Assembly: GCA_030611285.1 (NCBI GenBank)
Contig: JAUWQC010000018.1
Coordinates: forward strand, 1-11,391
Origin: a bacterium
Lineage (GTDB): Bacteria; Actinomycetota; Humimicrobiia; Humimicrobiales; Humimicrobiaceae
Direction: 5' to 3'
DNA: 11,391 bases
Shown: positions 1,871 to 7,817 of the stretch, one piece after another
How positions within the stretch are numbered: the stretch's first letter is position 1
Layout of the letters: the number at the start of each line of letters is the position of its first letter
Translations under genes and position numbers: made by a program
The notes under the pieces: model-generated
What the model saw: the letters and a program-made list of their open reading frames with translations, nothing else
The model's database searches: none
What the model was told of the DNA's origin: nothing

Positions 1871-2596
1871 TTATTCTGATTCATTAGCAATCTTATATTT
1901 TACCGCCCTCTCTAACCAATCATTTATATATATAGCAAAATTCTTTATACCCCCTTCCTTCCCCGGATTATCTTTAAAATGCCCTCGGATCTTTATTAAT
2001 TCAACCCCAACCTCTATAGTCGGAAATCTCTTTACCCAATCATCAATTAAATCCTCATCTATCCCATGCCAACTTAATAGTTCCTGGTCAAATTCTATAT
2101 CATTGGCTGGTTTTTTTTCTAGGGATGCGGAAACTTGATTCCGCACCTCTTTAATCTCTTTCTCTTTTCTTTCATTCTTATCATTCTTACATTCTTGTAT
2201 AATAGTGTCGCTTTTATTTCGCTTTTGTTTCGCTTTTAAATCGCTTTTGATGTCGCTTTTCGTGTCGCTTTTGTAATTTTCTAATCTCTGATAACCGTTG
2301 TAATTTAAGACTTTAATAATAAAACCTCGTGTCGCTTTTCGTGTCGCTATCATTGTCGCCGATTTTAGCCATCTAATACAGTGATCTATTTCATTTTTAT
2401 TTGCCTTTGTTTTCTGCATGATCCACTCATATTTCATAAAGCAACTACCCCGGTTAAATTGCTTATTATCTTTATGGTTAACTTCATTAATCAAGTAAAA
2501 CCATATCTTAAACCACTTATCCGGTTTGTTATAAAAGATATCGCTATCTATTGTTTGTCTTGCCCAGAGGGTAGCGCCGCCATTAATTTTTGCCAT
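1871..2596 (-). CDS. Phage replication initiator / replisome organizer (241 aa)
   Basis: This protein is expected to bind the phage origin and recruit the host helicase loader. The N-terminal domain (residues about 8-105) has the pattern seen in phage replisome-organizer proteins: WFKIWFYLINEVNHKDN at 28-44, a winged-helix-like KANKNEIDHCIRWLKSATMI at 64-83, and ATRKATRGFIIKVLNYNGYQ at 84-103. A charged low-complexity linker follows (KSDTKSDIKSDLKAKQKRNKSDT, from 109), then a C-terminal helical domain (about 150-241) with GIKNFAIYINDWLERA, resembling the end of O-type proteins. The linker DNA carries regular repeats that look like iterons, so the origin is probably inside the gene, as in lambda O. 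AAGGA about 10 nt before ATG 2596 supports the start. I rely on remembered family patterns, not a search. Confidence 0.8.
   Translation of the reverse strand: MAKINGGATLWARQTIDSDIFYNKPDKWFKIWFYLINEVNHKDNKQFNRGSCFMKYEWIMQKTKANKNEIDHCIRWLKSATMIATRKATRGFIIKVLNYNGYQRLENYKSDTKSDIKSDLKAKQKRNKSDTIIQECKNDKNERKEKEIKEVRNQVSASLEKKPANDIEFDQELLSWHGIDEDLIDDWVKRFPTIEVGVELIKIRGHFKDNPGKEGGIKNFAIYINDWLERAVKYKIANESE
2208..2360 (-). repeat. Iteron-like repeats, probable replication origin
   Basis: On the minus strand the unit is AAAAGCGA, often followed by CA. In plus coordinates, TCGCTTTT occurs at 2208, 2219, 2230, 2241, 2253, 2265 and 2332, with degenerate copies (TCGC only) at 2344 and 2356. Spacing is 11 or 12 bp, about one helical turn, in a block of six and a block of three. 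The 11-bp steps shift the reading frame, so the repeat is read in all three frames of the host gene (KSDL, KAK, KRN). DNA-level selection is therefore the best explanation. AT-rich stretches on both sides could melt. That this is the origin is inference from lambda-type phages. Confidence 0.7.
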
Positions 2597-2919: not shown

Positions 2920-2939
2920 CTTAATTTACCCCCTAAATA

Positions 2940-3062
2940 TTAAAGCATACAAAAAAGCCAACCATGAAGGGTAACCTGCCGCCGCAAAGTGGCAGGCAAT
3001 GAAAACATGATTGGCCTCTTGTATGCTTTTATATTCTTTTTATTTGATAGTTTTATTTTCAT
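2940..3062 (-). CDS. Possible 40-aa ORF overlapping the structured RNA
   Basis: An ATG at 3062 is preceded by AAGGG with a 7-nt gap, and the frame runs 40 codons to TAA, 20 nt before the next gene. It would encode a basic N-terminus (MKIKLSNKKNIKAYKRP) followed by IMFSLPATLRR and a Cys/Trp/Leu-rich end (LHGWLFCML). I recognise no family. The second half of the ORF is the long hairpin of the RNA element, so codon content there is forced by base pairing. It could be a real small protein, a leader peptide whose translation opens the hairpin, or a chance frame in a non-coding RNA. The ribosome binding site and consensus promoter favour translation; the folding favours RNA. Confidence 0.4.
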   Translation of the reverse strand: MKIKLSNKKNIKAYKRPIMFSLPATLRRQVTLHGWLFCML

Positions 3063-3074
3063 ATTTTTACCCTT
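2942..3074 (-). ncRNA. Structured RNA with nested stems and possible pseudoknot
   Basis: The predicted transcript starts near 3074 and folds into three stacked helices. P1 is 11 bp (3029-3019 with 2952-2942), P2 is 10 bp (3015-3006 with 2966-2957) and P3 is 6-7 bp (2997/2996-2991 with 2980-2975/2974). The pair 2962/3010 is G-U in minus-strand RNA but C-A on the plus strand, and 2974/2997 behaves the same way, so the fold belongs to the minus-strand transcript. The loop strand UUACCCUU (2974-2967) between P3 and P2 is exactly complementary to the 5' end AAGGGUAA (3074-3067), which is also the Shine-Dalgarno of the overlapping ORF. P2 is followed by six U, so it could also act as a terminator. 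It matches no RNA family I know. Confidence 0.65.
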
Positions 3075-3080
3075 AATAGC

Positions 3081-3109
3081 ATTATATATTATTTTTTATC
3101 GGATGTCAA
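3081..3109 (-). promoter_or_regulatory. Consensus sigma70-type promoter
   Basis: On the minus strand, TTGACA (3109-3104) and TATAAT (3086-3081) are separated by exactly 17 bp, a perfect housekeeping promoter. The -35 box contains the TGA stop of the upstream methyltransferase gene. Transcription would start at about 3074-3073, giving an RNA that begins AAGGGUAAAAAU directly before ATG. It drives the structured RNA and probably the small genes, replication initiator and terminase genes beyond it. Confidence 0.85.
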
Positions 3110-5886: not shown

Positions 5887-6074
5887 ATCTGTACCCAAAA
5901 ATCATTATTCATATATTCAAAAAAAACATCGGCGCAATCCTGCAAGGTATCAATGCAGACCTCAAATAAATTAAGTGTAGAATATATATCTATTATACAT
6001 ATCGATGTTATAATTACCCAAACAATTAAAAGTATCATCATAATATCTTTAAATAATTGAACTTTATTTAGCAT
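5883..6074 (-). CDS. Small membrane protein (63 aa)
   Basis: ATG 6074 is preceded by AAAGGGGGGTAAAG, one of the strongest ribosome binding sites here. Residues about 8-31 (FKDIMMILLIVWVIITSICIIDIY) form one membrane helix; the remaining part is acidic with two Cys (FEVCIDTLQDCADVFFEYMNN) and would lie on the outer side. It overlaps the Cys-rich 105-aa gene by 11 nt and is coupled to the HTH gene. No family recognised. Phage single-span proteins of this size can affect lysis timing or exclude other phages, but there is no direct evidence. Confidence 0.7.
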   Translation of the reverse strand: MLNKVQLFKDIMMILLIVWVIITSICIIDIYSTLNLFEVCIDTLQDCADVFFEYMNNDFWVQI

Positions 6075-6381
6075 CTTTACCCCCCTTTATTTCTTTTAGT
6101 CCATCTTCCGTTAATAAGAATCTTCTTCCTGTTTGTATAAACCCATTCTTTAGACTTCTACACCTTCCACTTTTTCCATTACAAGGACTATACACAGGAC
6201 ACCATTTATCACAATCGCCTTTTTCTACAAATCTCTCATTTTCTTCACACCACATTTCCCCACCGATATCTCTTTTTGTTTCAAGTAATTCTATTTCTTT
6301 TAAGTCCTTGTCTAACTCATTTTTATAAAATGCTAATGTTTGAACTCCATCTGCATCCATACTTTCTACAAAATATTTCAT
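6064..6381 (-). CDS. Cys-rich phage protein, intact paralogue (105 aa)
   Basis: I do not know the function. I choose ATG 6381 (MKYFVESM) because AAGGGGGTAAAG precedes it and because the paralogue at 7817 starts at the same point (MKYYIFED). The N-terminal part ends in an acidic helix (ELDKDLKEIELLETKRDIGG). A dense Cys segment follows at about residues 45-75: EMWCEE, KGDCDKWCPVYSPCNG and SGRCRS, five cysteines that could hold a metal or disulfides. The C-terminal RRFLLTEDGLKEIKGG resembles a short strand-helix. A nonsense-interrupted copy lies at 7515-7817. The two copies flank the beta-class methyltransferase and two small genes, suggesting a local duplication. Confidence 0.75.
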   Translation of the reverse strand: MKYFVESMDADGVQTLAFYKNELDKDLKEIELLETKRDIGGEMWCEENERFVEKGDCDKWCPVYSPCNGKSGRCRSLKNGFIQTGRRFLLTEDGLKEIKGGKDAK

Positions 6382-6397
6382 TATTTTCTTTACCCCC

Positions 6398-6559
6398 TTA
6401 ATTTTGATAATCATCCGGATCATCATCCCTGGAAGTTTCTTCCATCACAGTATCGCATTCCGGGCATCGCATCGGATCATGTGGATACCAGGATTGTACT
6501 TCCATGCTGTCTAAATTTCCGCATTCAGGACATTTGTAACATACCTCGAAACAACCCAT
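6398..6559 (-). CDS. Zinc-ribbon protein (53 aa)
   Basis: ATG 6559, with AAAGGGGATAAATAAT before it, opens a 53-codon frame: MGCFEVCYKCPECGNLDSME, a linker VQSWYPHDPM, then RCPECDTVMEE and an acidic tail with DDDPDD. CPEC pairs at residues about 10-13 and 33-36 form a classic two-knuckle zinc ribbon, with extra Cys at 3 and 7. Such ribbons bind nucleic acid or proteins; the acidic tail makes a protein partner as likely as DNA. The stop is 16 nt before the 105-aa gene and the following GGGGGTAAAG serves that gene. Confidence 0.75.
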   Translation of the reverse strand: MGCFEVCYKCPECGNLDSMEVQSWYPHDPMRCPECDTVMEETSRDDDPDDYQN

Positions 6560-7514: not shown

Positions 7515-7817
7515 CTAAGATTCTATCTCCCTTAATCCTTCTTTGGTTAATAAAAACTTTAATCCTGTTATTACAAAGCCATTCTCTAAATTTCTACATC
7601 TACCACTTTTTCCATTACATGGATTGTATTATTTACACCATTTTCCACAATCACCTTTTTCTATAAAATCTTCTTTTTTACAACAATACATTTCTCCACC
7701 AATATCTCTTTCCATTTCTAATAATGTCATTTCTTCTAAATCATCCTCTATTAATTCTTCTTTGAAGCAATCTAATGGCATAACGTATTCTCCATCTTCA
7801 AAAATATAATATTTCAT
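7515..7817 (-). pseudogene. Cys-rich paralogue interrupted by an in-frame TAA
   Basis: The frame starts at ATG 7817 with GGGGTAAAGGAAA upstream and runs MKYYIFED through the acidic helix to GGEMYCCKKEDFIEKGDCGKWCK, where TAA (7631-7629) ends it after 62 aa. The same frame continues as YNPCNGKSGRCRNLENG, then FVITGLKFLLTKEGLREIES and TAG at 7515. Against the intact copy (6064-6381) the alignment passes straight through: WCPVYSPCNGKSGRC there, WCK-stop-YNPCNGKSGRC here. So a single codon (GTG in the copy) has become TAA, with no frameshift. Either the gene is newly broken, a 62-aa form with most Cys lost is made, or TAA is read through. Other genes here end normally, so general recoding is unlikely. 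Confidence 0.8.

Follow-up and report, generated by a model that had tools for sequence, protein, structure and literature searches.

The window, by which we mean the whole stretch of DNA analysed, is contig C52 (11,391 bases) of an assembly of 1.32 Mb in 282 contigs. Its minus strand carries genes of phage type: a terminase small subunit, DNA methyltransferases, an HNH nuclease and a DnaD-like helicase loader. Two small cysteine-containing proteins, at 7629-7817 and 6064-6426, look related by eye, the copy at 7629-7817 being much shorter. The element described here sits between a methyltransferase-like gene (3666-3106) and the genes 2919-2719, 2722-2603 and 2596-1871. The last of these is the DnaD-like helicase loader gene of the replication module (1871..2596, minus strand; phrog_2514, E 8.4e-10). 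For the 66-aa protein of the gene next to the element no viral relative was found.

The element begins with a consensus promoter of the sigma-70 type on the minus strand (3081..3109), composed of TTGACA (3109-3104), a 17-nt spacer and TATAAT (3086-3081). The preliminary description had called it perfect, and it does match at 12 of 12 positions, a score unique to this site among the 42 promoter-like sites listed; at least one such site arose in 10 of 400 dinucleotide shuffles of the window. The RNA is predicted to start near 3074, and its 5′ end is the Shine–Dalgarno (SD) strand AAGGGUAA (3067..3074). At 7 nt from the SD core stands the start codon strand AUGAAAA (3056..3062). It opens the 40-codon ORF noted earlier, which the ORF list places at 3062-2940 (2940..3062, minus strand) and which extends across the whole of a hairpin, its stop lying just past the hairpin's helix P1.

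A terminator-like hairpin and its loop strands

The minus-strand RNA folds into three stacked helices, all placed by folding and covariation together. P1 (11 bp, 3029-3019/2952-2942) joins the arms AAAGCAUACAA (3019..3029) and UUGUAUGCUUU (2942..2952), P2 (10 bp, 3015-3006/2966-2957) joins GCCAAUCAUG (3006..3015) and CAUGGUUGGC (2957..2966), and P3 (7 bp, 2997-2991/2980-2974) joins GCCUGCC (2991..2997) and GGCAGGU (2974..2980). This is the architecture first described, with P3, then given as 6-7 bp, counted as 7 bp. The two G-U pairs that had been read as the mark of a minus-strand fold are indeed present, one in P2 and one in P3. The folding energy of the minus-strand RNA is -50.9 kcal/mol (z -5.56), equalled by 0 of 200 shuffles, against -40.8 kcal/mol (z -4.94) for the plus strand. 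Directly after P2 comes a tract of six U (2951..2956), as in an intrinsic terminator, and this tract also pairs partly into P1. A terminator scan of the window did not list the hairpin, probably because of its 8-nt loop limit.

Two strands of the internal loop concern us most. L5, UUUUCAU (2999..3005), is complementary to the start codon strand. L3, UUACCCUU (2967..2974), whose first U doubles as the closing G-U pair of P3, is the exact 8-nt complement (2974-2967) of the RNA start (3074-3067), as had been noticed. Judged by sequence, the tip of the hairpin is a split antisense of the ribosome binding site (RBS), since L5 can pair with the start codon and L3 with the SD.

Homologues and covariation

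A second copy of the element is found in the same assembly (C183:1957-2126, 85% identity to the window element), flanked by a DNA methyltransferase gene (phrog_757) and a Phage_rep_org_N replisome organiser gene. Its -35 box matches the consensus at 4 of 6 positions. The replisome organiser gene of C183 (L003:2134-3168) has an internal HNH endonuclease domain, and its C-terminal part resembles, by eye, the DnaD-like gene of the window.

Is there a more distant relative? A search of IMG/VR with the phrog_757-type methyltransferase of the window gave 37 loci. The best of them, L020 (73% identity), has a weak BLASTN match to the element (60% over 213 nt, E 0.031) about 900 nt past its methyltransferase gene. 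L020 was chosen for this position and this match, before its complementarity was known; among the 40 BLASTN matches listed, other loci have better E-values, which we took to be chance matches of AT-rich sequence. The L020 element (at 6483) has TTGACA-N17-TATAAT, the SD UAGGAGA, a GUG 7 nt past the SD core and a hairpin laid out in the same way. It stands ahead of a DUF559-type gene and then a replication O/DnaD-like gene. The replication gene downstream of the element is the third gene in the window, the next in C183 and the second in L020. Synteny between methyltransferase and element is loose: the window has a second methyltransferase gene there, C183 nothing and L020 small ORFs, and in many of the 19 loci examined, of the 37, a long reading frame directly follows the methyltransferase instead. 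The L020 record also contains a tandem duplication (5970-6465), which repeats a gene of 57-71 aa and holds a truncated first copy of the element, with promoter, SD and the 5′ side of P1, ending inside P2. A further variant, P0001, is known from its protein only, as the one database match of the C183 ORF protein. It would imply an extra base in the P1 3′ arm which, as read back from the protein, would pair as G-C in the place where the window has A-U and C183 has G-U.

How well are the pairs preserved among the window, C183 and L020? When MAFFT aligns the three by their sequence only, without structure, 98.1% of 104 cells are paired (35 pairs, three sequences). Both sides have changed in 15 of the 35 pairs; the shuffled mean is 5.6, none of 500 shuffles reaches as high, and slid versions of the structure give 0-2. 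Compensatory changes occur in all three helices, and in the SD:L3 helix four of seven pairs have changed on both sides, three are invariant and one cell is unpaired. Compensatory change in the 8-nt SD pairing had been named in advance as decisive; it is found, in 4/7 columns, on only three sequences. A manual, anchored count over the three loci finds pairs formed in 107 of 111 cells; both sides have changed in 4/9 pairs of SD:L3, 3/11 of P1, 9/10 of P2 and 3/7 of P3; the P2 of L020 lies one column apart in this count and in the MAFFT alignment, which gives 5/10 for P2. RNAalifold, run on the same alignment, predicts P1, P2 and P3. Because there are three clear homologues only, two of which (the window and C183) are close relatives, the covariation rests mainly on L020. 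We hold it very probable that the RNA structure and its pairing with the RBS are real.

Might the complementarity nevertheless be a chance property of an AT-rich phage terminator, where purine SD-like strands easily meet pyrimidine anti-SD strands? A loose descriptor of the plan indeed fails to separate real from shuffled sequences (660 real matches; 635, 682 and 635 shuffled). However, a strict descriptor, written after the three members had been seen and applied to 190 loci and six shuffles, scores 39 for the window, 39 for L020 and 38 for L003 (C183), followed by 31 for L042 and 27 for L030, with a shuffle maximum of 31. Over the 37 methyltransferase loci this means that L020 scored, while L042 and L030 are at chance level. 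We regard chance as refuted by the covariation in the structure-free alignment, albeit of three sequences only. It seems to us extremely improbable, and would seem marginally more so had the covariance model not missed L020.

That model, R2, was built from the window and C183. It misses L020 at E up to 10, matches only the window and C183 among 51 sources, and finds its own genome only, one of 40 genomes of the class and one of 396 of the phylum. DNA pattern scans picked out 0, 57, 7, 15 and 77 stretches in viral sequences and 0 and 30 in genomes. Among the 57, the strict descriptor scored only L169, which is the L020 contig; in the 7 and 15 viral and the 30 genome stretches the plan was seen in none but L169. 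Of the 77, only L301 (the L049 contig) has at least 8 complementary nt, and the strict descriptor scored none of them, L301 included. Four Aeromonas phage matches, obtained by BLASTN of the window element against phage records, lie in recA-like genes (E 0.2) and are not homologues. BLASTN found none for the C183 element among plasmids and none for the L114, L020 and L049 elements among phages. Since pattern, BLASTN and covariance-model searches gave so few members, the family is rare in the collections searched. No Rfam family, in a library that includes C4, matches at gathering, in agreement with the first impression that the element belongs to no known RNA class. Four weak Rfam matches to other families (E up to 5) were judged chance; one of them is PhrS (E 0.054, 16 bits where gathering requires 37). 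A limited search of the open-licence literature found no paper on this element, which is not proof of absence.

A general descriptor was run on 195 loci, L115, duplicates of the window, C183 and L020, and loci of cellular genomes being left aside. It scores 39.4 for L114, 30.2 for L020 at 612, 26.0 each for the window and L049, 25.2 for L003 and 23.4 for L057; the best of five shuffles is 23.0. By manual count, L020 at 6483 falls below its pairing threshold. Among the Phage_rep_org_N loci, 80 kept from 122, only L114 and, marginally, L057 (23.4) stand above the shuffles. At L114:4839-5000, and in a near copy at L115:2836-2997, 18 nt of the RNA 5′ end can pair, one G-U included, with the loop of a long hairpin that has a U tail and immediately precedes the Phage_rep_org_N gene; the 5′ strand holds SD and start codons. 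A second element-like stretch of L020 (588-720) shows a 19-nt near-complementarity between the RNA 5′ end, AUG included, and the inside of an 11-bp, U-tailed hairpin ahead of gene 737-1450. A comparable element lies at L049:2381-2560, with a divergent replication-initiation gene on one side and other early genes on the other. The replication gene is thus next after the element in L114, while the L049 element precedes other genes and diverges from the replication gene. L049 shares with the window a core, CTCTGCGGC-AGG-ACCCT, that resembles the P3-L3 strand. Its homology to the window element is uncertain, because 77 stretches match this core, the strict descriptor failed on it and its L5 matches its own RBS over 3 nt only. 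As both descriptors required long-range pairing, L049 and L114 are not independent evidence for that pairing. We treat L049, L114 and L020 at 612 as leads, not homologues.

Pairing with the RBS and the predicted order of folding

How closely do the loop strands fit the RBS of their own RNA? L5 is complementary to the start region over 7-8 bp in all three loci, the GTG start of L020 included: AUGAAAA/UUUUCAU in the window, AUGAAUA/UAUUCAU in C183 and AACGUGUA/UACACGUU in L020. The L020 pairing lies one column off the alignment register and was for that reason left out of the covariation count. In a 4×4 matrix of loci, the SD:L3 duplex energy of the own pair is the best in every row and column, and the same holds for the L5+L3 duplex (-16.5, -14.8, -21.8 and -15.5). 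With L5 alone, the C183 RBS prefers the L5 of L020 (-7.4) over its own (-4.9). In-strand shuffles reach the observed energy in 4, 12 and 0 of 5000 cases for the window, C183 and L020. The strand borders for these energies and shuffles, and for the anchored count above, were chosen after the complementarity had been seen.

If the hairpin tip can pair with an RBS, must it be the RBS of its own molecule? A terminated or processed hairpin that exposes L5 and L3 could act in trans, like C4 of P1/P7 or CI of P4. The RBS that it closes would then be carried by a second copy of the same transcript, by a superinfecting phage or by several phage genes. The two strands antisense to SD and start do resemble the a′ and b′ loops of C4, and the position ahead of replication genes resembles that of P4. 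With start sites picked from ORF lists (28 in the window, 10 in C183, 25 in L020), the own RBS ranks 5/28, 2/10 and 1/25 for L5+L3, and 5, 4 and 5 for L3 alone; four other RBSs of the window therefore pair with L5+L3 at least as well as the own one, which favours a trans partner. On the other hand, the RBS of the next gene, AGGGGGUAAA (2925..2934), with which L3 is able to pair, is not a special target. It ranks 10/28, 5/10 and 11/25 for L5+L3, which lends it no support as a specific third partner, and 8, 2 and 7 for L3 alone. The fit of L5 to its own start region in three loci argues for a cis partner. C4 (RF01695) gave no match at gathering, and the L020 and L049 records (42 and 45 kb, possibly fragments) gave no match to integrase, resolvase or HTH_3. 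An integrase was found in one of four records, L114; the window and C183 contigs are too short to tell. We consider action in trans rather unlikely. Because other phage RBSs are equally able to pair with these strands, we see in the element an anti-RBS that fits its own RBS and could touch others.

What role might be played by the ORF? In the window, C183 and L020 the SD core stands 7 nt from the start codon, 121, 120 and 122 nt separate the start codon from the end of P1, and the reading frame is open through the hairpin, as it is in L049. Such openness is mildly unusual, with a shuffle chance of 0.118, 0.085, 0.035 and 0.234 for the window, C183, L020 and L049. Between the window and C183 a 1-nt indel shifts the frame. 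That the frame stays open despite this indel suggests that what counts is translation across the hairpin, not the peptide made.

Two further readings turn on this point. The RNA could be a type I toxin-like mRNA, its small, partly hydrophobic peptide silenced by intramolecular closing of the RBS as in hok and AapA. Anti-SD closing of the RBS, even from far downstream, and transient co-transcriptional folds are described for type I toxin mRNAs (PMC6733600), and in C183 and L020 the ORF product seems, by eye, to have a hydrophobic C-terminal end. But the indel leaves the peptide unconserved, the hairpin lies within the ORF and not behind its end, and across the window element there is no opposite-strand promoter-like site of at least 9/12, with one of 9/12 each in C183 and L020. 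We think a toxin mRNA quite unlikely. Alternatively the product could be a stable non-coding phage RNA, with its 5′ end tied into the hairpin mainly for protection and the ORF incidental; the strong promoter, the strong hairpin with its U-tract and a structure better kept than the peptide would suit it. Yet the paired 5′ end is a proper RBS at the right place before a start codon in three loci, the start region matches L5 and the frame crosses the hairpin without a stop, all of which make this reading very doubtful.

When, then, would the RBS be closed? The order of folding was taken from nested predictions on partial transcripts, for which RNAfold does not score pseudoknots. In all three loci the SD core is predicted to be 0.55-0.78 unpaired up to 70 nt (prefixes from 40 nt). 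The start codon closes before the SD (0.00-0.30 unpaired at 80-110 nt). The SD core is then shut (0.09, 0.08 and 0.01 unpaired at 110, 110 and 120 nt in the window, C183 and L020) and reopened (0.77, 0.55 and 0.61 at 120, 120 and 130 nt); earlier dips occur at 90 nt in the window (0.25) and at 100 nt in L020 (0.24). The probability of SD:L3 pairing in the window is 0.01 at 104 nt, 0.83 from 108-115 nt and 0 from 118 nt, the length at which the P2 3′ arm has been finished. C183 has 0.40 at 107 nt, 0.95-0.98 at 111-117 nt and 0.04 at 120 nt, the end of the P2 3′ arm. In L020 it is 0.14 at 110 nt, 0.95-0.96 at 114-120 nt and 0.01 at 126 nt; here the SD remains paired (0.95) when the P2 3′ arm ends and is released six nt later. 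In the window intermediate the start codon is predicted in another register, overlapping the P2 5′ arm, with 0 pairs between start and L5. Among the leads, L049 is predicted to show the same closing and opening, L114 closes, opens and has its SD closed again at 120-150 nt, and in L020 at 612 the 5′ pairing persists at 115 nt (0.94).

In nested folding, SD:L3 pairing and a finished P2 are thus mutually exclusive. The element had been proposed to be a pseudoknot switch that closes the RBS. The long-range SD:L3 pairing, with its four compensatory columns of seven, upholds part of that proposal; the nested folds predict a transient closing, beside which a static pseudoknot holding both pairings at once would be a further possibility. 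Likewise the 5′ pairing does cover the SD, as had been said, but the complementarity takes in the start codon too, and the SD is predicted to reopen after the P2 3′ arm. Since RNAfold cannot score a pseudoknot, the final opening is not certain: after P2 forms, the RBS is predicted to be open or in loose contact with the loop.

We give about even chances to the reading that the element is a co-transcriptional attenuator ahead of phage replication genes, and we infer its termination, its sign of control and its target genes as follows. In the leader RNA, the RBS of a short ORF would compete with the arms of a terminator-like hairpin. RNA polymerase would start at about 3074, and the RBS is predicted to be mostly open for about the first 70 nt. 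Once the tip L5-P3-L3 has been made, it would fold back on the RBS and close it, first with the L5 side on the start codon and then with L3 on the SD, P3 being the third arm of the junction. When the P2 3′ arm and the U-tract have been made, P2 and then P1 would form, displace the junction and reopen the RBS. A ribosome that is early on the RBS would prevent the junction, and so change whether the P2-U6 terminator forms before the polymerase leaves. The outcome would set the amount of transcript that reaches the downstream replication genes.

Two features of attenuators can be recognized: a terminator-like hairpin with U-tract inside the leader ORF and, in the nested predictions only, a competing fold with which the terminator cannot coexist. 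Efficient termination is reported for terminators that lie within the first 100 bp of a coding region (PMC4824070). The U-tract lies about 106-111 nt past the start codon, and ribosome-driven antitermination may therefore be weak.

Comparison with known RNA switches

Control of early and replication genes by RNA has been described in a few phage model systems, namely P4, P1/P7 and Gifsy-1. The present element is compact, its pairing is backed by compensatory change and its predicted folding order can be tested. A distant relative has preserved the pairing with altered letters, which points to a phage gene-expression switch that is real and probably a new variant. If the attenuator reading is true, the phage would read ribosome availability at its first RBS to set the expression of its replication module. 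More tentatively, we entertain the possibility of a distinct class of ribosome-sensing phage attenuator, in which the leader RBS is the antiterminator strand, the terminator hairpin carries the split antisense of SD and start codon, and early regions of several phages share this plan without being related in sequence; the loci counted are the window, C183 and L020 at 6483, with L049, L114 and L020 at 612 as leads.

C4 antisense RNA, Rfam RF01695 (PMC2864571), is described as having three stem-loops, being cut out by RNase P and acting on a target mRNA (PMC5320573); it has antisense loops a′ and b′, of which b′ partially occludes an RBS (PMC5320573; PMC12197685). The element resembles C4, as these sources present it, in being a phage RNA with two antisense strands in loops, one partly over an RBS, and loops antisense to an RBS are what we find. 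In contrast to C4, both of its strands lie in one internal loop of one long hairpin, and their partner is the RNA's own 5′ RBS.

In P4, CI RNA shuts off the expression of the replication genes, and the leader transcript is said to be untranslated (PMC4825925). With its seqA-seqB-seqC system the element has in common, on that account, an RNA–RNA pairing in the leader of replication genes with the antisense partner upstream (PMC4825925): an antisense strand complementary to an upstream leader site, and a leader of replication genes, are both present here. The element differs in that no special downstream partner of the seqC kind emerged from the ranking of RBSs and no integrase was found in the L020 and L049 records, and in that its leader has an ORF.

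IsrK of Gifsy-1 is described as a small RNA produced with a read-through mRNA from one promoter, with a terminator, a short ORF and alternative folds that open or close an RBS (PMC4825925). Promoter, terminator, short ORF and RBS-switching folds are the points of likeness to the element, as far as that account goes (PMC4825925). The short ORF of IsrK (orf45) comes after the terminator, whereas the RBS of the element precedes the hairpin and its ORF runs through it; the sequences were compared by Rfam scans only.

Like hok and AapA3, the element would combine an anti-SD closing of the RBS with ordered, transient folds during transcription (PMC6733600). It departs from them in having no conserved toxin peptide and no clear promoter for an antisense antitoxin, and in placing the anti-RBS inside a terminator-like hairpin. 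Finally, in transcription attenuators of the tet(M) type a short leader ORF overlaps the terminator. The element shares this arrangement, but in it the RBS itself would compete with the terminator hairpin.
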